Assembly: GCF_026109735.1 (NCBI RefSeq)
Contig: NZ_CP069620.1
Coordinates: 3,224,001 to 3,288,000, forward strand
Reading direction: 5' to 3'
DNA from: Salinimicrobium tongyeongense
Lineage (GTDB): Bacteria; Bacteroidota; Bacteroidia; Flavobacteriales; Flavobacteriaceae
Length of the DNA stretch: 64,000 nucleotides
The notes under the pieces are model-generated. The model had not been told where the DNA came from. It worked only from the letters and a program-made list of their open reading frames with translations, and ran no database searches. The position numbers and the translations under genes were made by a program. Positions within the stretch are counted from its first letter, which is position 1. Every line of letters starts with the position of its first letter. This document shows positions 17,300 through 30,491 of the stretch, piece by piece.

Positions 17300-17671
17300 A
17301 TGAGAACACTGGGAAAAAAGACATGGGTAATTGCCGAAGGCTACATCCCCAAATACGGCACGGGGAAAGAACCCGAATTCACCAGCCATGAAACGGCCTG
17401 TATCTTAAACACTTCAAATGAAAATGCAGAAGTTGAGCTCACCATTTTCTTTGCAGATAAAGATCCTGTGGGGCCATACAGAGTAAGCGTTGAGGCGCAG
17501 CGTACAAAGCATTTACGCTTCAACGACCTCAAAGATCCCGAGCCTGTTCCTTTGGGGACAGATTATGCCTGTGTGATCGAATCTTCGGTTCCCGTGGTGG
17601 TACAGCACACCCGGCTTGATTCCAGGCAGGCAGAAAATGCACTTTTGACCACTATAGCCTATTCAGAATAA
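17300..17671 (+). CDS. Sensory-rhodopsin-transducer-like (ASRT, PF07100) protein, copy 1
   Basis: 123-residue small beta-sandwich protein of the Anabaena sensory rhodopsin transducer family. Visible family features are the N-terminal GKKTWVIAEGYIP, the ILNTSNENAEVELTIFF strand pair, VEAQRTKHLRFNDL and SSVPVVVQHTRLDS. Bioinformatic work on the family proposed that it is a small-molecule, probably carbohydrate-binding fold often found beside sugar enzymes; the context here agrees. No rhodopsin gene is seen in the window, so a photosensory role is unlikely. The stop codon abuts the next ATG directly. Confidence 0.85.
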   Translation: MRTLGKKTWVIAEGYIPKYGTGKEPEFTSHETACILNTSNENAEVELTIFFADKDPVGPYRVSVEAQRTKHLRFNDLKDPEPVPLGTDYACVIESSVPVVVQHTRLDSRQAENALLTTIAYSE

Positions 17672-18859
17672 ATGGAGGTCTTTAAGAATTGGAGTGGCAG
17701 TATGAGCTTTAAGCCGGGACAAATTATTGCTCTCGAGAGTGAAGAACAGCTTTGCGAGCTGGTCAAAAAAGCCACTTCTGAAGGAAAAAAAGTACGGGTT
17801 GCAGGTGCCGGGCATTCCTCGTCGCCATTGGTGCACACAAAAGATTACCTGCTTTCCCTGAAGCATTTTAGAGGCGTAGAAGATCCCGATCTCAAAACAA
17901 AGCGCGCCACGGTGCCCGCCGGCATGACGGTAAAAGAGGCCGGAAAAGACCTTTATCGATACGGGCTGGCCATGCACAACACCGGGGATGTAGATGTTCA
18001 AACCCTGGCCGGGGCCATAGGCACCGGCACGCACGGTACGGGAAAGGAACTGCCAAACCTTTCGGCCATGCTTTATGGGCTGAGAATGATTAACGGGAAA
18101 GGGGAAATTGTGGAAATAAACCGCGAAAATGATCCTGAAACTATGCAGGCCCTGCAGGTTTCTATGGGTTCCTGCGGAATTTTCCTAAAAATGCGGCTTC
18201 AGCTCGAGCCCGCTTACCAGCTCTACAGGAAAGAATATTGTGTTTCATTTAAAGATTGCATGCAAAATTTTGAGGAGCTCAAAAAGAACCGGAATTTTGA
18301 TTTTTACTGGTACCCGCGCACAGATCTCTGCAAGATAAGGATCATGAATACCGATAAAGAAAAGATGCCCCATATTTCTTATGGAAGCCCTGAACTGGAA
18401 AGGGAAGGGCCAAGCCACGAGATCCTGCCGCGTTCCCGCGACCTTAAATTTGATGAAATGGAGTATGTGCTTCCGCAGGAAAAAGCCATGGAATGTTTTT
18501 ACGAAGTGCGGAAACAGGTAAAGGAAAAATGGAGGCGTACTGTAGCCTGGCGGCTCTTAATTCGCACCATAAAAAAGGATGACGCACTTATAAGCCCAAT
18601 GAGTGGGAGGGAATCTGTCACTATTTCGCTTCATCACAACGCGGGCCTCAGGTTCTGGGATTATTTTAAGGCCATAGAGCCCCTTTTTCTGAAGTACGGC
18701 GGCCGACCCCACTGGGGAAAAAAGCACACTCTAAAAGCCGGTACGCTTAAGGAGCTTTACCCGCACTGGGATCGCTTTCAAAAAATCAGGAAAAAATTTG
18801 ATCCTGAAAGCACCTTTTTGACACCTTATATGAATGAACTCTTTAACTTTGAGAAATGA
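17672..18859 (+). CDS. FAD-linked aldonolactone oxidase-like enzyme (ALO/GULO family)
   Basis: 395-residue vanillyl-alcohol-oxidase-superfamily flavoprotein. The FAD-binding PP loop reads AGAGHSSSP with H48 placed like the covalent flavin His of gulonolactone and arabinonolactone oxidases. AGAIGTGTHGTG is the second FAD contact. The C-terminal HWGK (347-350) is the ALO-domain signature, and the protein ends in the family-typical FDPESTFLTPYMNELF. It likely oxidises a sugar lactone or an alditol, giving H2O2 or feeding a carrier. It has no signal peptide. It is sandwiched between two ASRT-like genes. Confidence 0.85.
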   Translation: MEVFKNWSGSMSFKPGQIIALESEEQLCELVKKATSEGKKVRVAGAGHSSSPLVHTKDYLLSLKHFRGVEDPDLKTKRATVPAGMTVKEAGKDLYRYGLAMHNTGDVDVQTLAGAIGTGTHGTGKELPNLSAMLYGLRMINGKGEIVEINRENDPETMQALQVSMGSCGIFLKMRLQLEPAYQLYRKEYCVSFKDCMQNFEELKKNRNFDFYWYPRTDLCKIRIMNTDKEKMPHISYGSPELEREGPSHEILPRSRDLKFDEMEYVLPQEKAMECFYEVRKQVKEKWRRTVAWRLLIRTIKKDDALISPMSGRESVTISLHHNAGLRFWDYFKAIEPLFLKYGGRPHWGKKHTLKAGTLKELYPHWDRFQKIRKKFDPESTFLTPYMNELFNFEK

Positions 18860-19230
18860 GGAAAATAGGGAAACTTGACTGGGCTTTTTCCGGCGGAAGG
18901 ATTCCGTTTGAATCAACAGGGGAGGAACCTGAGTTCAACAGCCACGATAAGATTTCGGTGCTCAATACTTCCGAAGAAGCAGCAAAGATCGGGATCTTTA
19001 TATTTTATGAAGATCAGGCACCGGTGGGCAATTATGAAGTTGAAGTTGAGCCAAAACGACTCCGCAAGATCAGGATTAACGACCTTATAGACCCCGAAGC
19101 AGTGGCGCTGGAGAGGAATTATGGCTGCTATATTCGTTCGAACATCCCTGTGGTGGTACAATTCAGCAGAATGGCCACCGGTCAACAAGCGAATGGCATC
19201 ATGGGAAGCATGGCTTTCCCGGCCGATTAA
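18856..19230 (+). CDS. Sensory-rhodopsin-transducer-like (ASRT, PF07100) protein, copy 2
   Basis: 124 residues, clearly paralogous to the copy at 17300. It keeps the same order of blocks: GKLDWAFSGGRIP, EPEFNSHDKISVLNTSEEAAKIGIFIF, VEPKRLRKIRINDLIDPEAVAL and SNIPVVVQFSRMAT. Differences cluster in the N-terminal loop (AEGYIPKYGT versus SGGRIPFEST) and after VVVQ, which may change ligand or partner. The start overlaps the oxidase stop by four bases (ATGA). The two ASRT proteins could form heteromers, as the family is oligomeric. Confidence 0.85.
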   Translation: MRKIGKLDWAFSGGRIPFESTGEEPEFNSHDKISVLNTSEEAAKIGIFIFYEDQAPVGNYEVEVEPKRLRKIRINDLIDPEAVALERNYGCYIRSNIPVVVQFSRMATGQQANGIMGSMAFPAD

Positions 19231-19241
19231 AAAATGACAGC

Positions 19242-20108
19242 ATGCTAGGATTTTTACTGGCTTTTGGAACCGCTATTTCTGAAGCTTTAAAAGATATTAC
19301 CAGTAAGCACAACCTTCATCACATAGATGAATACACGGCGGCTTTTTCGATGCACCTGGTACAAAGCCTTCTTTTGATCCCGGTGGTTTATTTCTTCGGA
19401 TTTGAATCTGTATCAACACGCTATTTGTGGGCATTACTGAGTTGTTCCTTGCTTCAGTTAATGGTGATCCTGCTCTATTTTAAAGCCATTAAGAGATCAG
19501 AAATTTCGGTAACGCTTCCGCTTATTACTTTAACCCCGCTTTTTATGCTCATTACTTCCCCTATTATGCTGGGAGAATTCCCCAATACCCTGGGCTTAAT
19601 AGGGATTGTGCTAATTGTGCTGGGAACTTACATCTCAAATTTAAGCGAAGACCCAAAAAAGGTATTTGCGCCCTTCGTTTCCCTGCTAAAGAACCAGGGT
19701 GCGAGATACATGCTGGGGGTGGCGTTTATCTGGAGTATCACGGCAAACCTCGATAAGATAGGAGTGGAGGAGACCTCACCGGTTTTCTGGGCCTTCACTA
19801 AAGATTTTACGATCCTGCTTTACCTGCTGCCCATTTTGCTCTGGAAATCAAAGAAACCCTGGCTACAAATCAGGAACCGCAAAGGTCCGCTGTTCATGGT
19901 AGGTTTTTTTAGGACCACCAGTGTGCTGGCCCACATGTTTGCAATTCAGCTTATCCTGGTGCCTTACGTGGTCACTATTAAAAGGTCGAGCGCGGTTTTT
20001 ATTATTCTCTATGCCTTTTTCTTTCTGAATGAAAAGAAGAACTTCAGGAACAGGATCATAGGTATTAGCATCATCCTTACCGGCCTTTTCATTATTGCCA
20101 TTTCCTAA
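19242..20108 (+). CDS. EamA/DMT-family transporter
   Basis: 288 residues with about ten predicted membrane helices in two EamA repeats (residues 1-135 and 150-288). Typical blocks are LYFKAIKRSEISVTLPLITLTPLF at the end of helix 3-4 and VVTIKRSSAVFIILYAFFFLNEK in the second repeat. The family exports or imports small metabolites. Starting 11 bases after the ASRT gene, it may move the product or substrate of the preceding sugar enzymes, but that is inference. Confidence 0.87.
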   Translation: MLGFLLAFGTAISEALKDITSKHNLHHIDEYTAAFSMHLVQSLLLIPVVYFFGFESVSTRYLWALLSCSLLQLMVILLYFKAIKRSEISVTLPLITLTPLFMLITSPIMLGEFPNTLGLIGIVLIVLGTYISNLSEDPKKVFAPFVSLLKNQGARYMLGVAFIWSITANLDKIGVEETSPVFWAFTKDFTILLYLLPILLWKSKKPWLQIRNRKGPLFMVGFFRTTSVLAHMFAIQLILVPYVVTIKRSSAVFIILYAFFFLNEKKNFRNRIIGISIILTGLFIIAIS

Positions 20109-20158
20109 ATAAAAGCTGGGGTTCTCACAAAAAGTTTTATTTTTAAACAAACCTAATT

Positions 20159-21331
20159 ATGAGAATTTCTATTACCAGATTATTTGCTGTGGGGCTGCTT
20201 GCTGCTTTTGCCTCTTGTAAAGAGGGGAAAAAGCAGGCGGAGAATATTGCTCCCAAAGATCCTGAAACCAAAAACATGAACGTCATTTTTGTAGGCTCCT
20301 ACACCCGGAAAGAAGGTCATGTAGACGGAAAGGCTGAAGGCATTTACACGCTCTACCAGAACCAGGAAACCGGGGAGCTCAAAAATGGCAAAACAGTAGC
20401 AAAGCTTACCAACCCTTCGTTTGTGAAAACATCCAAAGACGGCAAATATCTTTTTGCCGTGAGTGAATTGGGCCCCGGGGGCGATGCCGAATCTGGTTTT
20501 GTTTATTCCTATAAGATCACTGAAAATGACTCGTTAGAAGAGCTTTCCAGAATCTCTACGGAAGGTTTTGCACCGGCCCACGTAACTATAGACGAATCGG
20601 GTAAGTATGTGTTGGTCGCAAATTATTCAGGCGGGGTGGTGATGCTTTATAAGCTTGCTGAAAACGGTATTCTGAAAAAGCAGCAGCGAATAGATCTCGA
20701 AAATCCGGAAGGATCTCATGCACATTCAATTACAGTTTCAGCCGATAATGAGCACGCCTACATTGCCGATCTTGGCAATGATAAGATCTGGATCTATGAT
20801 TTCAATGAAAGCGAAGGAAAATTAACTCCTGGAGAGCAGGCTTTTGTGGACCTGGAAAATGGCGCCGGCCCCAGGCATTTCACACTTTCCAAAAAAGGCC
20901 GTTTTGCCTATTCAATTAATGAACTTAACAGCAGTGTAAGCGCTTTTAAGGTGCTTGAAAACGGGGGACTGGAGCTCATCCAGAATATTTCTTCCCTTCC
21001 CGAAGGTTTTTCAGAAAATAATTCGGGTGCCGATATACATTTGCATCCTTCAGGAAAATTCCTCTACGCATCTAACCGCGGCCATAATAGTATTGTTTCT
21101 TATGAAGTAGATACTGCTTCAGGAGAACTTGGCAATCCAAATTTCACTTCTACCCTTGGAAAAACCCCCCGAAATTTTGCCATTTCCCCTGATGGAGCCT
21201 TTTTGTATGCAGCTAACCAGGATTCGGGGAATATTTCAGTATATAAAATTGGGGAGGATGGAACTTTGGAACAAAAAGGAGAGCCTGTAGCTGCAAAAAC
21301 CCCGGTTTCTCTGGAATTTTCGAACCGCTAA
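20159..21331 (+). CDS. Lipoprotein lactonase (6-phosphogluconolactonase/YbhE-like beta-propeller)
   Basis: 390 residues. A lipoprotein signal ends in FAS-C (C20), predicting envelope anchoring. The remainder is a seven-bladed propeller of the lactonase family: FVGSYTRKEGHVDGKAEGIYTL, the repeated HPSGKFLYASNRGHNSIVSY and SPDGAFLYAANQDSGNISVYKI. Lactone hydrolysis is plausible beside the aldonolactone-type oxidase, but the lipoprotein location argues against a pentose-phosphate role. TATTTTTA at 20139-20146 could be its own -7 box, 12 bases before the ATG. Confidence 0.85.
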   Translation: MRISITRLFAVGLLAAFASCKEGKKQAENIAPKDPETKNMNVIFVGSYTRKEGHVDGKAEGIYTLYQNQETGELKNGKTVAKLTNPSFVKTSKDGKYLFAVSELGPGGDAESGFVYSYKITENDSLEELSRISTEGFAPAHVTIDESGKYVLVANYSGGVVMLYKLAENGILKKQQRIDLENPEGSHAHSITVSADNEHAYIADLGNDKIWIYDFNESEGKLTPGEQAFVDLENGAGPRHFTLSKKGRFAYSINELNSSVSAFKVLENGGLELIQNISSLPEGFSENNSGADIHLHPSGKFLYASNRGHNSIVSYEVDTASGELGNPNFTSTLGKTPRNFAISPDGAFLYAANQDSGNISVYKIGEDGTLEQKGEPVAAKTPVSLEFSNR

Positions 21332-21366
21332 CAGGCTCTCTCTTCTGAAATAAATTATTTTTTTAT

Positions 21367-21397
21367 CCCCTGTCAAAAATGGCATTTTTGGCAGGTG
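21367..21397. terminator. Hairpin terminator containing a perfect CAAAAATG-N-CATTTTTG dyad
   Basis: Between convergent genes ending at 21331 and 21401. CCTG at 21369-21372 pairs with CAGG at 21392-21395, outside the perfect dyad at 21374-21390, and TGTTTTT follows. It can serve as a terminator, but the dyad itself also recurs elsewhere, including inside genes. Confidence 0.6.
21374..21390. repeat. Recurring 17-base dyad, perfect copy
   Basis: CAAAAATG-G-CATTTTTG, an exact inverted repeat of 8-base arms around one base. Other copies with no more than 2 mismatches: 5970-5986, 6850-6866, 26523-26539, 32161-32177, 38683-38699, 41360-41376 (perfect), 55256-55272, 59945-59961, 60120-60136 and 62380-62396. 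Confidence 0.75.
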
Positions 21398-21400
21398 TTT

Positions 21401-22297
21401 TTATACTTCTTCAATGATGAAGAATCCGTCGTTGCCCTGTGATTGATACAGGGGCATAAAGATGTAGGCATCCCACTCGCTTTTTATTTCGCCGCCATTA
21501 CTGGTGGCCAGCAGTTGCCCCTTTTTTATTTTCTGAAAATTTTTAAAGCCGGGTTCCATTTTGAAGCTGTCGCCTTTTTTGATCTCGTGCCGGTAAACGA
21601 TTTCAAAGGTTTTTTGCGAAGGAGCATTCTTTTCGGTGAATCGCTCTACACATTCGGGATAGCAGGAGACTTTTTCGACATCAAGCCCGTTAGCATGTTT
21701 TAAGGCCAGCCAGATCATTCCCTCGTGGTTGTCTACAGAAGCCTGGCTTGTGTGCTGGCCGGCCTCAAAGACAAATCCGGTTAAGCCCGTTCGGCTCATA
21801 TAGTGGTCTATGGCGCCATATACAATATCGCTGAAGCCTTTCACGATGTAGGTGGGGAACCTCTGGGCCCAATCTACATTATCGTTTACATCCTGTACCG
21901 AAATGTAAGGCAGGCTGTCTGAAGAGGTGGTGTGACAGTCTAAAAAATAGCGTTTTGTGTAATGAGTTTTGGGATGCCCCTCAAGAATGTTGATGATCTC
22001 GTGCATTTCACGCTGTTCCTGAGTTTCGGGATCCTGGTTTTTCACGTTCTCTTCGGTCCAGGTGCGGTTGAGATCTTCATCAATATATCGCTGCGCTTTA
22101 TCGAGGGCGGCTTTATTTCCCATGACACCCACAATAGTTCCCTTAATTTCAGGTTTGGTTTTTTCAAGTTCAGAAAATACCTTTTTTAAAGCTTTTACTC
22201 CGCTGGGTTCATTACCGTGAACCCCGGCAGTTACAAACAGTAAAGGCCCTTCTTTATTACTGGTGTATTCTCCTATGATTCGGGTTTTCTCTTTCAT
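21401..22297 (-). CDS. Succinylglutamate desuccinylase/aspartoacylase-family zinc hydrolase
   Basis: 298 residues of the M14-like AstE/AspA branch. The zinc site is visible: GVHGNEPSG (H25 and E28 of the HxxE motif) and the third ligand in FLDCHTTSSDS. Also present are DLNR and the catalytic-Glu region GFVFEAGQH. These enzymes cleave an N-acyl amino acid or an amide of aspartate/glutamate. The C-terminal beta domain (EIKKGDSFKMEPGFKNFQKIKKGQLLA) is typical. Last gene of the operon that starts with the DUF1704 gene and carries two ATP-grasp ligases; 11 bases separate it from the upstream ligase. The likely substrate is the amide product of those ligases (inference). Confidence 0.87.
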   Translation of the reverse strand: MKEKTRIIGEYTSNKEGPLLFVTAGVHGNEPSGVKALKKVFSELEKTKPEIKGTIVGVMGNKAALDKAQRYIDEDLNRTWTEENVKNQDPETQEQREMHEIINILEGHPKTHYTKRYFLDCHTTSSDSLPYISVQDVNDNVDWAQRFPTYIVKGFSDIVYGAIDHYMSRTGLTGFVFEAGQHTSQASVDNHEGMIWLALKHANGLDVEKVSCYPECVERFTEKNAPSQKTFEIVYRHEIKKGDSFKMEPGFKNFQKIKKGQLLATSNGGEIKSEWDAYIFMPLYQSQGNDGFFIIEEV

Positions 22298-22308
22298 TTT
22301 TCCTTTTT

Positions 22309-23358
22309 TTATTCCATTGTTGCCAATACCTGGTTGGATATCTGGCCTTTATACAGTTTTTTGTACTCCACTTTCTTTTCGATGGCATCGATAACCACAT
22401 CTGAAAAATCGGGCAGGCCTATTTCTTCAAAGTGATCCATACCACCCGGGCTAAGCACATTGATCTCGATAAGTTTATCTTTTACGATATCAAGCCCTAC
22501 AAAGAACAATCCGTCCCTTATCAGTTTTGGAGCGGTAATTTCTATGATTCGCTTCATCTCATCGGTAAGCGGACTTTTATCTCCTGTACCCCCCTGATTA
22601 AAATTACTTCGGAATTCTCCTTCGCCGGTGACCCTTTTAATGATCCCGTATTTTCCGTCTTTTTCCATAACCCGGCCATTCAGGAGTAAAACCCGTACAT
22701 CACCTTCTTTTGCTGCCGGAAGATATTCCTGGGCAATGATATACCCCTGATTAGAGAGATTTTCTATAATCTGGTTCAGGTTCTTTTCATTCTTATCGAT
22801 AAGGTAAACATCTCTGCCTCCCGAGCCTTCAAGAGGTTTGAGCACCATCTTTTTCTTGTGGTTCTCAAAGAACTCCATAACGTCTTCCTTTTTCCTTGTA
22901 ATAATAGAGTAGGGCTTAATACTGGCCGGCAATTCCTCAAAATACAATTTGTCTATAAAGGCATTAGAAAGGGCATAGGCATCATTGAGCACGAGCACGC
23001 CTTCCTGCTGCACCATACGGCCAAAAGCTACCCCTGCCTGTTCTGCCCACTGGCGGGAAGAACCTTCTTCGGTAGGGTTGTTTCTGATAAAAAGGACATC
23101 AAGATCTGTAGCCGTAATCCGCTCTTTTTTAGCTTTATTGCTTTGCAACAGCTCGATATACTCTTTTGGGCTTTTAGTTTCAATTTTCTTAGGAAGATAT
23201 GTAGAGTCGATGCACAATTCTTTGTCTTGTTCAAAGAAAAAATCTCCCACGCCCATGGCATACACATCGTGTTTGCGTTTGCGGGCTTCGTGCATAAGGT
23301 ATACTGTGGTACCACAGGTTTCGGTATCGACACTATTTACTACAAAACATATTTTCAT
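22309..23358 (-). CDS. Glutathione-synthase-like ATP-grasp ligase, copy A
   Basis: 349 residues. Layout as in glutathione synthetase/RimK: pre-ATP-grasp Rossmann part (MKICFVVNSVDTE, LFIRNNPTEEGSSRQWAE), the nucleotide-binding KKMVLKPLEGSGGRDVYLI, the EYLP...EGDVRVLLLNG strand, GEFRSNFNQGG, and the Mg-binding GLDIVKDKLIEINVLSPGG. The ligase couples a carboxylate to an amine through an acyl-phosphate. The glycine-rich loop has GGRD where copy B has GGRG. Despite the fold, the neighbourhood does not match glutathione synthesis (no gamma-glutamylcysteine ligase). Third gene of a four-gene operon. Confidence 0.88.
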   Translation of the reverse strand: MKICFVVNSVDTETCGTTVYLMHEARKRKHDVYAMGVGDFFFEQDKELCIDSTYLPKKIETKSPKEYIELLQSNKAKKERITATDLDVLFIRNNPTEEGSSRQWAEQAGVAFGRMVQQEGVLVLNDAYALSNAFIDKLYFEELPASIKPYSIITRKKEDVMEFFENHKKKMVLKPLEGSGGRDVYLIDKNEKNLNQIIENLSNQGYIIAQEYLPAAKEGDVRVLLLNGRVMEKDGKYGIIKRVTGEGEFRSNFNQGGTGDKSPLTDEMKRIIEITAPKLIRDGLFFVGLDIVKDKLIEINVLSPGGMDHFEEIGLPDFSDVVIDAIEKKVEYKKLYKGQISNQVLATME

Positions 23359-23412
23359 TCATGATTAATTTAAGGGATCACTCCCGGTTAATTTATAAGT
23401 GTTTAAAAGGTT

Positions 23413-24462
23413 CTATTCCATGGTTGCAAGTTCGCGGTTGGAAATCCCCGAACCATAATGCTTCTTGTATTCAATTTTTCTTTCGATGGCCTCAATAATG
23501 ACATCCGAAAAATTCTCTACCCCAATTTTTGAGAGTCCGTCGAGGCCGCCTGGACTTAGCACATTGATCTCAATGAGTTTATTCTTCACTACATCGAGAC
23601 CTACAAAAAAATGTCCGTCCCTTTTCAGTTTGGGGCCAATAACCTCAATTATCTTTTTGATATCATGGGTGTACTCACTGGCTTCGGGCCTTCCGCCCTG
23701 GGAAATATTACTCCGGAAATCCCCCTCGCCACTCACACGTTTAATGATCCCGTATTTGCCGTTTTTCTGAAGGATATTTCCGTTAAGCAAAAGCACGCGT
23801 ACATCGCCTTCTTTTGCTGCAGGTAAATATTGCTGAGCGATGATATAACCCTGGGCTGACAGGTTTTCTATGATCTGGTTTAGGTTTTTCTCATTCTTAT
23901 CTATAAGGTAAACCCCCCGCCCGCCTGAGCCTTCGAGGGGCTTTAGGATCATTTTTTTCTTATGGGTTTCAAAAAACTCTAAAATTTCGCTTTTATCACG
24001 GGTGATGAGGGATGCAGGTTTAATATGCGCCGGCAACTCTTCAAAATACAGTTTGTCTATAAATGCATTGGAGAGGGCAAAGGCATCATTGAGCACGAGC
24101 ACGCCTTCCTGTTGAACCATGCGTCCAAACGCCACCCCGGCAGATTCGGCCCACTGCCTGCCTTTATCTTCTTCAGTTGGGTTATTCCGAATAAATAATA
24201 CATCGAGCTGTTTGGCTTCCAGTTTTTTTGTAGCGGCTTTTTCCCCCTGCAGCATTTCGAGGTGTTCTTCGGGAGTTCCGGGCTTTGAACTTTTTGGAAG
24301 CGATCTCGTAATGATGCTTAGAGCTTCGGTCTGGGTAAAGCTAAAATCGCCCACCCCCATTAAATAGACCTCATGATTCCTTTTCCAGGCCTCATGCATC
24401 ATGTAGACCGTGGTGCCGGCACCTTCAGATTCAACACTATTTACTACAAAACATATTTTCAT
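23413..24462 (-). CDS. Glutathione-synthase-like ATP-grasp ligase, copy B
   Basis: Also 349 residues and a tandem paralogue of copy A: both begin MKICFVVNSV and both end in ISN-x-x-LATME, with long identical blocks in the ATP-binding half. The N-terminal substrate-binding half diverges most (residues 10-80), which suggests different acceptors. The glycine loop is GSGGRGVYLI and the Mg site is EINVLSPGG. Its ATG overlaps the DUF1704 stop by four bases, so the two are coupled; 54 bases separate it from copy A. The duplicate pair implies two successive ligations, or a heteromer. Confidence 0.88.
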   Translation of the reverse strand: MKICFVVNSVESEGAGTTVYMMHEAWKRNHEVYLMGVGDFSFTQTEALSIITRSLPKSSKPGTPEEHLEMLQGEKAATKKLEAKQLDVLFIRNNPTEEDKGRQWAESAGVAFGRMVQQEGVLVLNDAFALSNAFIDKLYFEELPAHIKPASLITRDKSEILEFFETHKKKMILKPLEGSGGRGVYLIDKNEKNLNQIIENLSAQGYIIAQQYLPAAKEGDVRVLLLNGNILQKNGKYGIIKRVSGEGDFRSNISQGGRPEASEYTHDIKKIIEVIGPKLKRDGHFFVGLDVVKNKLIEINVLSPGGLDGLSKIGVENFSDVIIEAIERKIEYKKHYGSGISNRELATME

Positions 24463-26342
24463 GCATTGATCAATTGTGAAAGAGGAATTCCCTTCCTGAT
24501 TTGTTCAAGTTTGGTTTTTGTTTCTTCAGTATGTAAATATCTTGGCGTAAGTTTTTGAGGAGAAAGAACCCGTCTTTCCTGTAATTCCTTGATTATTGGC
24601 ATGTGCTCAAGAGAAAATTTTCCGGTGAGCAGGGGAGCCAGTTCCCCGCCTTCTTCAAGATGTTGTTTTAGCTGTACCAGGCCTTTTAGGTACGAAATGT
24701 CTTTTGTGAATCCACCACCCTGCATGATTCGGGAGGTGATATTAAATGCCCTTTGAGCCGTAAAGTTATAGTCGTTATAGAGCAGGCGGAAGATCTCCTG
24801 GAAATCGGCCCCGTGCATTCTGGCAGAGGCAGCCACAACACGCCCGGCCAGCGTTCTCATCCTGTTGCCAGTAAGGCCACCCACCAGGTACTCAGATAAA
24901 ACTGCCAGGCCTTCCTGCAGGGTGTCATAATCTGTAAGGCCAATGGAAAGTAACCTGAGAGGTTGGGTATTGCCGTTATAGTAGGTGAGTACGTGTGTGC
25001 CAATCTCGTGTTGTATCAAAGCTTTGGTCTCATTGGCATTGAGCTTATAATCACTGGGCAGGTAAAGTTCGCCGCGGGAAACCATGAGGATGTTCACATC
25101 ATCACGCACATGTACCTTGCTGGAAAAATGTTCATCCTGCCCCCGGAAATAGTCAAATTCCTTATTGGCCAGCACTTCAAAATCTTCCGCCCTAAGGATG
25201 CTTTCAAAATCCTGCTGCTCTTGTTCGGGCACATCTTTGAGTATAGTTTCAGCTTCCCTTTGCAGCTCTTTGCTTATTTTACCGTAAAGCATCATGCTGT
25301 TGTAGAAAAAGCTATCCAGGCCTCTTTCAGTCAGCATGCTTATCTGTAGGTCGAGTTCTTCGCGTTTCTCCCGGAAGATATAAGACAATGCAGGGTCATC
25401 AACTTCCTCTATTTTTAAGTTGTAGAGCTTTCTCTTGAGCACGTCGGGATCAAAAGGTAAAAGCCTGTAGTGGTAGTTGAGTACTTTTTTATAGTCGCTT
25501 TTAAAAAAAGTGTCTTTGATGTTCCGGATGTTGGAAGGGGAAACCAGCCATAGAAATTGATAGGAAGATTCTATTTCGGCTAACTCGCGATCAATTTCAA
25601 TAACTTTTTCCTGAAGGTTTTTTTGTCCCAGTGCCCTGTAGCTCTTCACGCCACTGGAAGTTTGAATCCTGATAAAATGGTAAATGGTCTTATGAAGCGC
25701 CACTACAAAATTATCTTTAAAACTTCTAAAGAAAACGGGGTACTCTTCCCCTTCACGACTGCGGTACACGGGTGGCACTTCAAGCCCTATGAGCAAACAC
25801 CCGGCATCTTTTAACTGTTCCAGGCTCAAAAGAGGTTGCTGCCCGGGAGGTTGCCGCTCCAGGGTATCCTCCACCTGGGTGTCGGTGAAATTCAAAGCGC
25901 GGTAACCCGCATTCATTTCATCCAGTTCTTCTTTAAATTCTTTTATAGTGGTCGATAATTTTTGAGCAGGGCCCTTGATTTTGAATCCGCGGCTGCCAGA
26001 TTCTCCTGCATAGATCTCAATGAGAAGGAAAGACTTGAATTTTGAAGACATAGCTTCACTCAGGCTAAACATGAGCCGCTGGTAACCTTCAAAATCTTTA
26101 TTGCCAATAACCAGAAAAGAAGCTTCACTAAGAATTAAGCGAACGGTCGCCTGGTCTCTTTCCCCGTCATCCTTATCAAGATCCCGGTAAATTACCAGGT
26201 AAGGAAGTTCGTCGCTCATATGAAGGTAGCCGCCCCCGGGTAAATGCTTCTCAATTTCGCATTCTTCCTCAAGTTCCTGAATTATTTTTTGAATGGAGTT
26301 TTCATCAAATGCTTGTGTTTCTTTAGATGTGCTTACTTCCAT
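24459..26342 (-). CDS. DUF1704 (QEGLA-motif, MATCAP-like) metallopeptidase
   Basis: 627 residues. The zincin-like core has HEIGTH (H445, E446, H450) and the family motif QEGLA (476-480, with E477 the probable third ligand side) followed by VLSEYLVGG. The DUF1704 family was once named 'flavohemoglobin expression-modulating QEGLA protein'; eukaryotic members (MATCAP/KIAA0895L) remove a C-terminal tyrosine from tubulin, so carboxypeptidase action is the best guess. The first 400 residues are a long, mostly helical extension; residues 1-30 have no signal peptide, so the protein is cytosolic. First gene of the operon with two ATP-grasp ligases and an AspA-like hydrolase. Confidence 0.87.
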   Translation of the reverse strand: MEVSTSKETQAFDENSIQKIIQELEEECEIEKHLPGGGYLHMSDELPYLVIYRDLDKDDGERDQATVRLILSEASFLVIGNKDFEGYQRLMFSLSEAMSSKFKSFLLIEIYAGESGSRGFKIKGPAQKLSTTIKEFKEELDEMNAGYRALNFTDTQVEDTLERQPPGQQPLLSLEQLKDAGCLLIGLEVPPVYRSREGEEYPVFFRSFKDNFVVALHKTIYHFIRIQTSSGVKSYRALGQKNLQEKVIEIDRELAEIESSYQFLWLVSPSNIRNIKDTFFKSDYKKVLNYHYRLLPFDPDVLKRKLYNLKIEEVDDPALSYIFREKREELDLQISMLTERGLDSFFYNSMMLYGKISKELQREAETILKDVPEQEQQDFESILRAEDFEVLANKEFDYFRGQDEHFSSKVHVRDDVNILMVSRGELYLPSDYKLNANETKALIQHEIGTHVLTYYNGNTQPLRLLSIGLTDYDTLQEGLAVLSEYLVGGLTGNRMRTLAGRVVAASARMHGADFQEIFRLLYNDYNFTAQRAFNITSRIMQGGGFTKDISYLKGLVQLKQHLEEGGELAPLLTGKFSLEHMPIIKELQERRVLSPQKLTPRYLHTEETKTKLEQIRKGIPLSQLINA

Positions 26343-26640
26343 AATTTGTGTTTGCTTTTATTGGGAGCAAAAAAAATTGAGTCCTCTATCTCCCGGTAAA
26401 ATGCCTTACAGGTAAATTTAACCGATTCATGAGTTTTTGAAGAATAAAAGCCTTTGGTTTAGCTGAAGTTTAGCAAAGATTTAGTAGTACTTTTAGATAT
26501 TCCTGAAAGGGGGACAAAGCTTCTGAAATGCCATTTTTGAAAGAAATAATTGGAAAATACAGAAGGAGCAAAAAAATACCTTCTGAAATAAGATGCTGAA
26601 GCTCTTTTACTTAAATAAAAAGGCAGAATTAAATAATATT
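26343..26640. other. Non-coding region upstream of the DUF1704/ATP-grasp operon
   Basis: About 300 bases without a gene. It holds a near-perfect copy of the recurring dyad at 26523-26539 and an inverted repeat CAGAAGG (26560-26566) / CCTTCTG (26579-26585) with a 12-base spacer and no T-run. The 10-mer CTTCTGAAAT occurs beside the dyad and again in the right arm of the inverted repeat. These are candidate operator sites for the operon. No clear TAnnTTTG promoter was found on the minus strand. Confidence 0.5.
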
Positions 26641-26645
26641 TTTGC

Positions 26646-26675
26646 TTGTGTTTTTTAAAAAGCTCATTATATTTG
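26646..26675 (+). promoter_or_regulatory. tRNA-Arg promoter (TTG-N19-TATATTTG)
   Basis: TTG at 26646-26648 and TATATTTG at 26668-26675, an exact TAnnTTTG with the canonical 19-base spacing. Predicted start of transcription is just before the tRNA 5' end at 26688. Confidence 0.75.
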
Positions 26676-26687
26676 CACCGCTTTAAT

Positions 26688-26761
26688 GGTCGCGTAGCTC
26701 AGTTGGATAGAGCATCTGCCTTCTAAGCAGACGGTCAGAGGTTCGAATCCTCTCGCGATCA
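26688..26761 (+). tRNA. tRNA-Arg (anticodon TCT)
   Basis: Complete cloverleaf of 74 bases. The acceptor arms GGTCGCG and CGCGATC pair (one G-T), the D-arm is GCTCAGTTGGATAGAGC, and the anticodon stem TCTGC/GCAGA encloses loop CTTCTAA with TCT at 26722-26724. The T-arm has the conserved GGTTCGAATCC, with discriminator A at 26761. CCA is not encoded. It reads AGA and probably AGG codons. It stands alone with its own promoter and terminator. Confidence 0.97.
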
Positions 26762-26770
26762 CAAAGACAA

Positions 26771-26806
26771 AAAAAGGGGTTAAACCTGTTGGTTTAACCC
26801 CTTTTT
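26771..26806. terminator. Bidirectional terminator after tRNA-Arg
   Basis: Perfect 16-base-pair stem (26771-26786 with 26791-26806, AAAAAGGGGTTAAACC arm, TGTT loop). It ends the tRNA transcript and, on the minus strand, the universal stress protein gene ending at 26833. Confidence 0.93.
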
Positions 26807-26832
26807 CCTTTAAACTCAATTTCAAATAATTT

Positions 26833-27648
26833 TTATACGGTGGCCGGGAATGTGAGCAGGGGAGAAGGACTGCAAGATTGCATTCTTTTAATCCTGTCCC
26901 TTACAATTCCTCTTTTAAAGAGGTTCATATTCCGTTTTTCGGGCATTAGGACGATATCGGGCTCTTCTTTTTCTATGGCTTTTCGCAGGGTGTCAAAAAC
27001 TTCCGAAGAATAAAGCGTTCTGTAGGAAATTTTAGGATAGGGGATTTCCTGTTCCACTTTTTCCTGGAAATCCTGAAGTTTTTGAAGTGCCTCATCTTCC
27101 TTGCGGTGGGTAATGTGAACAACTTCAATATTGGCCTCTAAAGATTGGGCCATAGGGATCAATTCCTTGAGATAAATAAGTTCCTGATCGTCTAAAGTGC
27201 TGGCAAAAAGGATCTTTTGAGGCTGTTTAAAACGGTATTGTGGCGGTACGGCCAGCACAGGCAAAGAAGATTTTCCAATCATTTCGCTGGTGGTGGTGCC
27301 CACAAGTTTATCCTTTAGTTTACTGGCGCCACAAGCCCCCATAACGATCATTCTTACCTGAAGGTCTTTGGTAAATTTCAGGATCTCTTCGGCTATACTG
27401 GAGCCAGAAACCACAGCAGGGGAAATGGCTTGGGGCTGATAGTTTTCTTTTAGATGCAGCTTGCAAAACTCCTGAAGCTCTTTTTGGTGATCTTTTAAAA
27501 AATCCCCTTTAGGTCTATCTACTTCATAAGAAGGATAAACATGAAGAGCAATTAGGTCGTCTCCCATGATCCGGGCCAGTTCGGCAGCATACTTAAGGGC
27601 TGCCACAGAGTTGCTCGAAAAATCGGTTGCGTAGATTATCTTTTTCAT
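26833..27648 (-). CDS. Universal stress protein, tandem two-domain
   Basis: 271 residues with two UspA-like halves. The first (1-145) has the ATP-binding signature region MGACGASKLKDKLVGTTTSEMIGKSSLPVLAVP. The second (about 147-271) is degenerate, with VLMPEKRNMNLFKRGIVRDRIKR in the corresponding place. Double-domain Usps act as cytosolic stress and energy sensors. TACCTTTA on the minus strand (27668-27675) is a likely -7 element, 20 bases before the ATG. Confidence 0.9.
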   Translation of the reverse strand: MKKIIYATDFSSNSVAALKYAAELARIMGDDLIALHVYPSYEVDRPKGDFLKDHQKELQEFCKLHLKENYQPQAISPAVVSGSSIAEEILKFTKDLQVRMIVMGACGASKLKDKLVGTTTSEMIGKSSLPVLAVPPQYRFKQPQKILFASTLDDQELIYLKELIPMAQSLEANIEVVHITHRKEDEALQKLQDFQEKVEQEIPYPKISYRTLYSSEVFDTLRKAIEKEEPDIVLMPEKRNMNLFKRGIVRDRIKRMQSCSPSPLLTFPATV

Positions 27649-28007
27649 GATCTTAAATTTACCTGTTTAAAGGTAAGACCATAGATACCAATAAAGTATG
27701 ATTATTATCAGGTTATAAATATAGTGGCTTTAAAATCAGGTCCCAAAAATGTGCTTTTAGAGATCATTTATTTCCGCTGAAAAAACCGGTCTGTTTTCCG
27801 TATTTCCGAAGCTGTTTGTATGTTGAAACTGACTTTAAAATACTCTTCAGGAAGTGTTTCTGCTGAAAAAATCTGCTAAAAATGGCAAAAAACCTGCCTT
27901 ACCGTCCAATTTCCATAGAAAACTGAAGCTCTTTACCACAAATTAACGCGTGGTATTCTGCGTTAGCTGAAACTTCCCTTATTTTTGCCTTTTTCAAGAA
28001 GTAAAAT
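27649..28007. other. Divergent intergenic region between Usp and HAD genes
   Basis: About 360 bases with no open frame of note. It contains the Usp promoter box (27668-27675, minus) and TATTTTTG at 27980-27987 (plus), an exact TAnnTTTG 20 bases before the HAD gene ATG. A half-site of the recurring dyad (AAAAATGGCA) is near 27878. Nothing else was recognised. Confidence 0.5.
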
Positions 28008-28823
28008 ATGGATTATTCAAAGATAAAGCTCGTGGTGAGCGACATGGACGGGACTTTGCTGAACAGCAAACACGAGGTGAGTCCGCAGTTTTTAAAAATT
28101 TTCAAAGAGCTCAGGGAACAGGATATAAAATTTGCCGTAGCCAGCGGCAGGCAATACTACAGTCTCAGGGAACGCATGGACCCCATTAAGGATGAGCTTA
28201 TTTACATAGCCGAAAACGGGGCAATTGTAATGCAGCATGAGAAAGAATTGCACGTTGTGCCCATGCAAAAAGAAGTAGTGCATGAACTTATTCGCGAAGT
28301 GCGAAAACTTGACAATAAGTACCTCATTCTCTGCGGAAGGGAACAAGCCTACATTGAAAGTACAGCGCCCGAATTTATGGAACCCTTTCTCAATCATTAC
28401 GCAAAATACAAAGTAGTTGATGACCTGATGGAGGTAGAAGACGACCTGTTCCTCAAATTCACGATTTGTGACCTTTCTGGGGCCGAAGAAAACTCCCTGC
28501 CACATTTAAAGCATTTTGAAGATCGCCTGCAGGTGAAACTTTCCGGAGAAATTTGGATAGATTTTAATCACAAAGAGGCTCAAAAAGGCAATGCGCTAAT
28601 TGCCGTGCAGGAACAAATGGAGATTCAAAAAGGAGAAACTGTGGCTTTTGGCGATTATTTGAACGACCTGGAGCTATTCGAACATTCGGGTTACAGTTAC
28701 GCCATGCAAAATGCTCACAAAGAAGTGAAAGCTGTGGCTACACATCATGCCGGCAGCAATGACGAGCTGGGTGTGGAAAAAGTACTGGAAGAGCTCCTCG
28801 ATGGGCTCAAAGCTGCGAAATAG
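28008..28823 (+). CDS. Cof-type HAD-superfamily phosphatase
   Basis: 271 residues, cytosolic sugar-phosphate or nucleotide phosphatase type. HAD motif I is SDMDGTLLNS (nucleophile D13, acid D15), motif II ASGRQYYS, and motif III/IV FGDYLNDLELFEHSGYSYAMQNA. The large C2B cap domain lies between residues 85 and 195. Substrates of this family are broad. It has its own -7 box. Confidence 0.92.
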   Translation: MDYSKIKLVVSDMDGTLLNSKHEVSPQFLKIFKELREQDIKFAVASGRQYYSLRERMDPIKDELIYIAENGAIVMQHEKELHVVPMQKEVVHELIREVRKLDNKYLILCGREQAYIESTAPEFMEPFLNHYAKYKVVDDLMEVEDDLFLKFTICDLSGAEENSLPHLKHFEDRLQVKLSGEIWIDFNHKEAQKGNALIAVQEQMEIQKGETVAFGDYLNDLELFEHSGYSYAMQNAHKEVKAVATHHAGSNDELGVEKVLEELLDGLKAAK

Positions 28824-28908
28824 GTTTTACTGATAGTTTCAGCTATTATTCATAAGAATAGAAATTGCTGTTGCTGCTATTTTTTGTGTATTATTTCAGA
28901 ATAAAAAA

Positions 28909-28975
28909 ATCGCCTAAAAAGCTTTAGCACACCCGGTAAGTGTTCCAGAGTGTCAAAAATGGCTTTTTAGGCGAT
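28909..28975. terminator. 14-bp inverted repeat with long spacer between convergent genes
   Basis: ATCGCCTAAAAAGC (28909-28922) and its exact complement (28962-28975) are separated by 39 bases. An A-run precedes the left arm, and CTTTT follows the right arm. The spacer contains a possible inner stem ACAC (28929-28932) / GTGT (28940-28943) and half of the recurring dyad (CAAAAATGG). It probably ends both convergent genes, but the loop is unusually long for a terminator. Confidence 0.65.
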
Positions 28976-28997
28976 CTTTTCAGCAGAAGTAAACCGG

Positions 28998-30491
28998 CTA
29001 ATATGTTGCGGGTGCCCCCGGCTTTGGCAATGAGCTTTCAATAAATTGGCGCAGGTCATCATTGGCCTTTTTAAGATCTTCATTTCGAAGATACATCATG
29101 TGCCCGCTGCGGTAGCCTTTAAAGCTCAACCTGTCGCGCATTTTTCCGCTTGGGTCAAGCTGCCACATGGTATATTTCGCATCAAAATAAGTGGTTGCCC
29201 CATCAAAATACCCGCTCTGAATAAGCACATCCAAATTAGGGTTCTGAGCCATGGCCTGGCGCAGGTTTTCTCCGGTATTATCGCGGCTTCGGTCCCATGG
29301 GTGTACGGGTCCGAACATATAATAGGTAAGATCGGTTTTAAAATTAAGATCATTCCTAAGATAATGATTGATTGCCGGGGTAAAGGAGTGCAGCCAGGAG
29401 GTAAGTTCAGCGTTGTAATCGGGGGAATCTCCGGCTTCTTTTCGGTCTAAGCCCACATAGCGGGAATCGAGCCTTCCCACGGTCATCCCTTTTTGATCTC
29501 TCAGCAAATCTTTCCAGAAGTAACTGTATGGTACTTCCAAATTATGCTGAAGGATTTCTTCCCTGGAAATCCCGGAATAACGGGCCATGGTTGAAGCTAC
29601 TTCTTCCTTTTTATCTTGCTCCAGGAATCCTCCTTTGGCAAGAGCAGGAAGCAATTCATTTATTGCGTATTGCTCAACTTCCGGAAGCAGCTCTTCCAAA
29701 TCCCTTTTTTGAAGGTCTTGCGGAAGAAGGTTGTGATACCAGGCAGCGGCGGTGAAATAGGGGAGACGGTTCGCAACTTCTACGGGGCCATCACGATCTA
29801 TCCCAATATCTGTGGGAGAAACCAGGATCACCCCGTTTAGATACATCCACTGGGAATTCTGAAGCTCCAGCGCCAAGCCAGAAACTCTTGTGGTTCCATA
29901 ACTTTCTCCAATTAAATATTTTGGTGATAACCACCTATTGTTGCGGGTAACAAAGGTGTTGATCCATTTTGCGAGATAACTTACATCGGCATTCACGCCA
30001 AAGAATTGATCCCTGTCTCTTTTCTTTTCTCCTTTTGGCTCAATGATCCTGGAATAACCAGTGTTTACCGGGTTCACGTAAACAATATCGGCGATGTCGA
30101 GAATGGAATGTGGATTCTCCTTGGTTCCATATGGCTGAATGGGAAAACCTTCGGGATCAATTTCAAGAACACGGGGGCCGGTGTAGGCAATGTGCATCCA
30201 TACCGAAGCAGACCCCGGTCCTCCATTAAAAGAGATCACCAAGGGACGATTTTTTACATCCTTTATTCCTTCTCTTTGATAATAGGTGTAGAAAAGACTT
30301 GCAATGGGTTCCCCGTCATTATTCCAAACAGGTTGCATTCCAGTGGTCGCAGTATAGTCAATTCTTTGCCCCTTAATATTGACCCTGTGGGAAGTAACTA
30401 CCGTAGTATCAACCGGAATCTTTACATTTTGTGCATTAACTTCAGCATGTAATAAAGCGAGAAGAACCGCCAAAAAAGAAATTTTTTTCAT
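28998..30491 (-). CDS. Secreted S10-family serine carboxypeptidase-like peptidase
   Basis: 497 residues with signal peptide (MKKISFLAVLLALLHAEVNA-Q). Alpha/beta-hydrolase of the S10 family: FNGGPGSASVWMH oxyanion segment near residue 90, nucleophile Ser in GESYGTTR, Asp in IQSGYFDGATTY and His in YRSGHMMYL. Bacteroidetes members of this family are periplasmic peptidases. It is a single gene with no obvious partner. Confidence 0.9.
   Translation of the reverse strand: MKKISFLAVLLALLHAEVNAQNVKIPVDTTVVTSHRVNIKGQRIDYTATTGMQPVWNNDGEPIASLFYTYYQREGIKDVKNRPLVISFNGGPGSASVWMHIAYTGPRVLEIDPEGFPIQPYGTKENPHSILDIADIVYVNPVNTGYSRIIEPKGEKKRDRDQFFGVNADVSYLAKWINTFVTRNNRWLSPKYLIGESYGTTRVSGLALELQNSQWMYLNGVILVSPTDIGIDRDGPVEVANRLPYFTAAAWYHNLLPQDLQKRDLEELLPEVEQYAINELLPALAKGGFLEQDKKEEVASTMARYSGISREEILQHNLEVPYSYFWKDLLRDQKGMTVGRLDSRYVGLDRKEAGDSPDYNAELTSWLHSFTPAINHYLRNDLNFKTDLTYYMFGPVHPWDRSRDNTGENLRQAMAQNPNLDVLIQSGYFDGATTYFDAKYTMWQLDPSGKMRDRLSFKGYRSGHMMYLRNEDLKKANDDLRQFIESSLPKPGAPATY

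Follow-up and report, generated by a model that had tools for sequence, protein, structure and literature searches.

Genes for a MATCAP/DUF1704 (QEGLA) protein, an ATP-grasp ligase of the glutathione synthetase family and a hydrolase of the N-formylglutamate amidohydrolase family (FGase, PF05013) stand in one order on one strand in rhizobial plasmids (Aminobacter, Mesorhizobium, Shinella and Sinorhizobium meliloti CP090105), whose records annotate them gene by gene and assign the set no function. In the trio of RimK, a PF05618 zinc protease and AstE/AspA, an ATP-grasp ligase likewise adjoins an AstE/AspA hydrolase, the RimK target being ribosomal protein S6. The operon of an RLAN-RimK ATP-grasp protein, GCS2 and FGase, reportedly predicted by Iyer et al. 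in 2009, also joins such a ligase to an FGase-family hydrolase. In the tubulin system, tubulin tyrosine ligase (TTL), itself an ATP-grasp enzyme, and a MATCAP/TMCP carboxypeptidase, homologous by sequence to the bacterial protein, act on one system. According to PMC10499314, this eukaryotic family, to which KIAA0895L belongs, trims tubulin tails and polyglutamate. We analyzed a stretch of 64,000 nucleotides (the window, G000 C1:3224001-3288000) of the Salinimicrobium tongyeongense genome (G000, a single contig of 3.51 Mb), in which genes for a MATCAP protein, two ATP-grasp ligases (A and B) and an AstE/AspA-type hydrolase look like one operon (Table 1). The pairing of ligase and MATCAP recurs beyond chance in other genomes, and we tentatively propose that the module writes and trims an amide-linked amino acid in a small peptide-like metabolite.

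The rhizobial trio belongs to the same families, with an FGase in place of the AspA and a single ligase. The RimK trio occurs in the window's genome (G000 C1:1880766-1882106, L053) and differs from the module in that RimK is of another ATP-grasp family and no MATCAP is present. The RLAN-RimK/GCS2/FGase operon also occurs there, about 70 kb off (G000 C1:3174669-3177300; L068, L070); it has GCS2, lacks MATCAP, and its ATP-grasp protein is again of another family. Unlike the tubulin system, the module is bacterial, with no tubulin, a ligase of the glutathione-synthetase branch and an extra FGase/AspA partner.

The association of ligase and MATCAP was examined in three sets. In a family sample of 149 genomes, evenly drawn and mostly one per genus, the ligase is present in 74, MATCAP in 78 and both in 74 (hypergeometric P 3e-38); 86 of the 87 ligase genes lie less than 6 kb from a MATCAP gene on the same strand (the remaining one is G312's second ligase), and eight MATCAP loci have no ligase nearby. 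A phylum sample of 247 genomes, with the ligase counted at 390 bits or more, gave 14 with the ligase, 15 with MATCAP and 14 with both (P 6e-22), a few kb apart; 13 of these 14 ligase genomes exceed the NF009110 cut-off, G002 scores 396.5 bits, and G186 has MATCAP without ligase. The third set was 80 named loci, the best 80 of 567 candidates when these are ordered by similarity to the MATCAP of the window, and hence biased toward it. A same-strand ligase lies 3' of MATCAP with a gap of less than 400 bases in 76 of them, with a 4-base overlap in 20; the four exceptions are L108, at a contig end, and L135, L149 and L150, where the ligase is on the opposite strand. In the ligase tree the named loci span eleven phyla (Bacteroidota, Balneolota, Acidobacteriota, Gemmatimonadota, Planctomycetota, Calditrichota, Pseudomonadota, Myxococcota, Kiritimatiellota, Candidatus Poribacteria and Actinomycetota), many records being metagenome-assembled and taken with their binning as labelled. 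Other lineages mostly show the order FGase–MATCAP–ligase. Among 72,556 plasmid records 127 matched; of five matching regions that were opened, four were rhizobial, with FGase, QEGLA and glutathione synthetase consecutive, and the fifth, from Pseudoalteromonas, had MATCAP without FGase or glutathione synthetase beside it. A sequence-only reading of the window would have been refuted had the genes been rare neighbors elsewhere; since they are near-constant neighbors in the phylum, family and named sets, that objection fails.

Across the 80 named loci, scanned for open reading frames (ORFs) of at least 100 residues and for families in at least six loci, no conserved flanking gene was found apart from what synteny within lineages accounts for. 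Neither was a conserved precursor-peptide gene: when small ORFs less than 700 bases away were clustered, no group covered more than seven loci, each group came from related organisms, and several resembled pieces of neighboring genes or a tRNA. A rhodanese-domain gene sits inside the module in G103 and G088 (L042:10316-11137 and L043:10270-11109).

The second hydrolase is AspA in 38 of the named loci, FGase in 34, neither in seven, truncated in one and never both; three of the seven (L141, L142 and L151) end just upstream of MATCAP. AspA lies on the MATCAP strand in 35 of 38 cases, and FGase upstream on the MATCAP strand in 33 of 34. All four module FGases sampled were confirmed by Pfam. The aspartoacylase-like gene of the sequence-only reading is indeed present and of the AstE/AspA family, but as a lineage-specific stand-in for an FGase-family gene and not as a general component. 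The window's protein passes PF24827 (75.2 bits, gathering score 25) and fails the named-enzyme equivalogs (NF002601 aspartoacylase, 63.8 against 180; TIGR03242 AstE, 61.1 against 305.65). Residues H27, E30, D75-L76-N77-R78, H122 and E178 are invariant in the 22 aligned AspA rows, and we take H27, E30, H122 and E178, from the roles in human ASPA, to be the zinc-site residues. The enzymes already characterized in the AspA and FGase families have small N-acyl amino acids as substrates. The two families share a fold, which comparison of their profiles did not bring out (no usable match, probability 1.4%). In the MATCAP tree (quick method, 61 of 82 long MATCAP rows, AspA thinned from 40 to 19, very long branches for L136 and L150) the AspA types fall on one side of a single branch, that is one change, with support 91. 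A single exchange fits equivalent roles for the two hydrolases. The ligase tree sets three Cyclobacteriaceae AspA types apart from the others with weak support, so that one or two exchanges are possible. Within the family, among the 27 best-scoring loci (L160-L186, all with short-type MATCAP), a ligase is nearby in all 23 that have FGase and in none of the four that lack it. G345 has neither FGase nor ligase, and G299, at a contig end, keeps a partial FGase. Module-type AspA was found in none of 33 family loci scanned.

The window's MATCAP passes PF08014 (287.1 bits, gathering score 27) and scores 321.6 bits against TIGR02421 QEGLA (NCBIfam), below the curated cut-off of 338.65. It has the HExxxH motif and the following glutamate of QEG/EEG, and both HEIGTH and QEGLA, which had been read from the sequence at the outset, were found. 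H445, E446, H450 and Q476-E477-G478 are invariant in 59 of 59 rows of a long-MATCAP alignment (A2, the window and 58 of 73 long MATCAPs picked). The catalytic region covers residues 278-615 approximately and an extra domain residues 1-248; the long MATCAPs carry around 240 additional N-terminal residues. This N-terminal domain has no Pfam match and no convincing PDB match. Its profile scores 39.8 against the FGase profile in hhalign, with at most 22.5 in 100 column-shuffled controls and only 13-16 against the AspA, MATCAP and ligase profiles; the likeness stands out clearly from the controls but is weak when taken by itself (probability 68%, a single match of 121 columns). FGases have invariant histidines, whereas the conserved columns of the N-terminal domain have none, and G045 encodes an FGase-MATCAP fusion protein. 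Because the domain is FGase-like with no conserved histidine and such a fusion exists, the long MATCAPs may descend from an ancient fusion of FGase and MATCAP whose first half is now dead. The bacterial MATCAP profile matches human KIAA0895L (E 5.9e-16). An unannotated record of a Pseudomonas phage, flagged UNVERIFIED (OQ572403.1, L155), also contains a MATCAP-like match (27% identity, E 2e-15).

The window's operon carries the long type. Among the 78 MATCAP genomes of the family sample, 55 have only short MATCAPs, 10 have both types and 13 only long ones, so that short MATCAPs occur in 65. Short MATCAPs with a ligase nearby also have an FGase in 23 of 23 cases examined. Their flanks in L038-L042 are genes for chorismate synthase and a sodium:dicarboxylate symporter at one end and a PF04134 (DCC1-like) gene at the other; in L043 the symporter and PF04134 flanks recur (one protein of each flank family was tested over L038-L043, and the PF04134 distance varies). 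At this ancestral chorismate synthase-symporter-PF04134 locus, G000 has a second MATCAP paralog (C1:3338990-3340012; L001, L071), an open frame of the short type without the second histidine of HExxxH and without the QEG glutamate. A similar relic lies between the same flanks in G251 (L187), a further genome of the genus, and no FGase or ligase was found beside the relic in either. Catalytic loss is confined to these two genes among 148 MATCAP rows, in which some genes are counted twice. It is not the fate of all orphan MATCAPs, since those of G294, G363, G376, G345, G272 and G299 keep their residues (the G299 locus is split over contigs).

The two ligases score 172 (A) and 167 bits (B) against the GSH-S_ATP Pfam family. 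Both pass NF009110/PRK12458 'glutathione synthetase' (cut-off 408; A 422.9, B 439.1 bits) and fail the GshB equivalogs TIGR01380 (cut-off 299.05; 193.4 and 188.1 bits) and NF003573 (cut-off 272; 202.7 and 199.3 bits); among PDB entries, A matches E. coli GshB best (1gsa, E 1.5e-34). The earlier description of a pair of paralogous 349-residue ATP-grasp ligases agrees with their lengths and family matches. In a tree of 100 ligase frames of 300-380 residues, A and B are sister groups (100/95) with stems of 0.23 and 0.10, and on this sequence evidence the doubling arose within Salinimicrobium. The four genes, both ligases included, recur in this order in two named Salinimicrobium records, whose MATCAP catalytic regions share 87% and 86% identity with that of the window, and G251 has a single ligase at its long-type locus, with AspA. 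Eight columns with a clear family preference are fixed differently in A and B; the standout is E211 in B, which is Q in A and E in 99% of 85 other ligases. The ratio of nonsynonymous to synonymous substitution rates (dN/dS) among the three Salinimicrobium sets is 0.018-0.048 in the eight of 12 comparisons that were computable, with dS high or saturated. The sequence-only reading had made two ligases part of the design. This did not hold, as 74 of the 80 named loci have one ligase (in one case split into two frames) and so does G251; one further locus is cut off, and five (L073, L074, L141, L143 and L146) have two or three. A conserved two-ligase design is ruled out by these counts. L141, L143 and L146 are from Planctomycetota and Gemmatimonadota, and L141 and L143 also have two MATCAPs, so duplication recurs elsewhere.

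Operon layout and surroundings are summarized in Table 1. The four-gene minus-strand order given in the sequence-only reading was borne out by the ORF positions, coordinates included, with a 4-base overlap between MATCAP and ligase A, then 54 bases to ligase B and 11 to AspA. The stem-loops are weak support for the operon boundaries, the scan having returned 11 where 6.9 were expected by chance. Promoter-like sites were not above chance in a consensus scan (seven against 10.4 expected), and the only RNA element at gathering score in window positions 20000-29000 was a tRNA-Arg. Two genes for Anabaena sensory rhodopsin transducer (ASRT, PF07100) lie at window positions 17300-17671 and 18856-19230, with a gene of FAD-binding and lactone-oxidase domains between them.

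Table 1: Features of the operon and its borders (window positions).
Feature	Positions	Strand	Remarks
MATCAP/DUF1704 (QEGLA) predicted metallocarboxypeptidase	24459..26342	-	627 aa, operon's first gene
FGase-like N-terminal domain of MATCAP protein	25599..26342	-	profile comparison, conserved columns
ATP-grasp ligase A, PRK12458 subfamily of glutathione synthetase family	23413..24462	-	349 aa, longer branch
ATP-grasp ligase B, PRK12458 subfamily	22309..23358	-	349 aa, nearer relatives' single ligase
AstE/AspA-type predicted zinc hydrolase	21401..22297	-	298 aa
Terminator-like stem-loop, between Usp gene and operon	26769..26808	-	consensus scan only
Terminator-like stem-loop, between convergent lactonase gene and AspA-type gene	21369..21395	+	consensus scan only

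ATP-grasp enzymes of the ligase's family join a carboxylate to an amine. In the cycle that we propose, with somewhat less than even confidence, the ligase would spend ATP on an amide bond between a carboxylate and the amino group of an amino acid, our guess being an acidic one, and the FGase/AspA hydrolase and the MATCAP carboxypeptidase would act on the same compound, cleaving amide bonds that adjoin a free carboxylate. The hydrolases would either remove the added group or prepare the end for joining. The conserved gene set, the intact catalytic motifs, the replacement of FGase and AspA by each other, the joint loss of ligase and FGase and the lack of a consistent glutathione partner are the evidence for it; the common substrate, the reaction direction, the product and the cytosolic site are inferences. 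The absence of a conserved precursor-peptide gene favors a metabolite over a protein. The sequence-only reading, in which ligases build and hydrolases trim or recycle a peptide-like metabolite or tag, survives as the best account of a ligase beside hydrolases of the same bond, without its two-ligase part. We rank such a metabolite cycle above protein tail editing, a glutathione-like thiol and catabolism, in that order.

Several observations weigh against the metabolite cycle. Intact MATCAPs without a nearby ligase are found in G294, G363, G376, G345 and at one G272 locus; with G186, these orphans suggest that MATCAP may have a role of its own. In RNA-seq of Photobacterium damselae at 1% versus 3% NaCl (PMC10308900), A0J47_RS17020 'GshB' is up 38.4-fold and A0J47_RS17025 QEGLA up 27.5-fold, RimK being up 52-fold. 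From their tag numbers the first two would be neighbors, their identities being those of the annotation. The authors discuss A0J47_RS17020 as a glutathione synthetase, citing for 'this gene' a V. cholerae mutant that is defective in colonization, and place A0J47_RS17025 among uncharacterized proteins. Co-induction of ligase and QEGLA suggests that maker and cutter may cooperate and, like the orphan MATCAPs, speaks against simple opposition between them.

The next reading, which we consider doubtful, is that MATCAP removes a C-terminal residue of a host protein, the ligase re-adds one, much as tubulin is treated by its carboxypeptidases and TTL, and FGase/AspA recycles the acyl-amino acids set free. 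The eukaryotic MATCAP/TMCP enzymes that the bacterial profile matches trim tubulin tails and polyglutamate (PMC10499314), a bacterial MATCAP nearly always adjoins an ATP-grasp ligase, and the strong low-salt induction of RimK, 'GshB' and QEGLA together (PMC10308900) would fit as well. However, flank scans of the named loci revealed no substrate-protein gene traveling with the module, and by likeness the ligase stands nearest to glutathione synthetase, which acts on small molecules. The known substrates of the exchanged hydrolase families, small N-acyl amino acids, also speak against a protein. A bolder version, which we regard as unlikely, makes the module a bacterial counterpart of the tubulin tyrosination/glutamylation cycle, with an ATP-grasp writer and a MATCAP eraser on a peptide or protein C-terminus and the eukaryotic eraser descended from a bacterial partner of this kind.

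A reading that we consider quite improbable makes glutathione or a close gamma-glutamyl thiol the product: the ligases would attach glycine, or a different amino acid, to gamma-glutamylcysteine from another source, and the hydrolases would recycle the thiol. The NF009110 scores, the 1gsa match of A, a GCS2-family ligase gene in the window's own genome and the treatment of the induced Photobacterium gene as GshB (PMC10308900) all point this way, but neither A nor B, at 188-203 bits, reaches the GshB equivalog cut-offs of 272 and 299. GCS2 occurs in six of the 14 module genomes of the phylum sample, the window's among them, and in 136 of all 247 genomes, without association (Fisher p 0.41); PF04262, the E. 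coli-type GshA, occurs in none of the 14. Eight have neither of the two GshA-type families covered by the search, GshF and further routes to gamma-glutamylcysteine lying outside it. Two GshB-like proteins of the phylum sample that are nearer to GshB, in G194 and G076, are encoded near GCS2 instead; both retain a D-P-x-x-x-I-N stretch and S-P-T, which are absent from the window's ligases. In those two genomes (L051, L052) the GshB-like gene is two genes from GCS2, in a larger gene set that the two have in common and that encodes a protein of ~1800 residues. The initial remark that no glutathione partner gene is present is true of the operon, and PF04262 was not found in the window's genome, but a GCS2-family gene lies about 70 kb away. 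Given the failed equivalogs and the inconsistent GCS2/PF04262 partners, the module ligases are unlikely to be ordinary glutathione synthetases, the outcome that would have counted against the sequence-only reading. With the residue differences added, ordinary glutathione synthesis was dropped as the leading explanation and kept as a rival; the 'glutathione synthetase' annotation of PRK12458 may mislead where the module occurs.

Least probable is that the hydrolases degrade damaged or foreign N-acyl amino acids and peptides while the ligase captures a freed fragment, for although most loci have two hydrolases to one ligase, MATCAP is retained without ligase in some genomes, a ligase-free Pseudoalteromonas MATCAP lies one gene away, on the other strand, from astD and astA of arginine catabolism, and a sodium:dicarboxylate symporter gene (PF00375, one tested) is upstream of the module in L038-L043, the 80 named loci show no transporter or catabolic family apart from lineage-level synteny, and FGase disappears with the ligase, not alone.

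The families are already known and the trio is already present in the rhizobial records. Unusual in the window's lineage are AspA in the place of FGase and the doubled ligase; new details are the FGase-like N-terminal domain of long MATCAPs and the dead second MATCAP. In the open-licence literature we found no paper treating the module as a system, nothing pairing ATP-grasp with DUF1704 or MATCAP, and nothing pairing FGase with ATP-grasp and glutathione synthetase; an earlier prediction may exist in Iyer et al. 2009. We know of no assigned substrate for the bacterial MATCAP/TMCP relatives, and none surfaced in that search. If the module were the counterpart of the tubulin cycle, the pairing of writing and erasing would predate microtubules. 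The exchange of FGase and AspA hints at the chemistry, because enzymes already characterized in the two hydrolase families use N-acyl amino acids as substrates. The open annotation of QEGLA as 'flavohemoglobin expression-modulating' becomes testable, since across records from eleven phyla the protein comes with a second hydrolase and, almost always, with a ligase.

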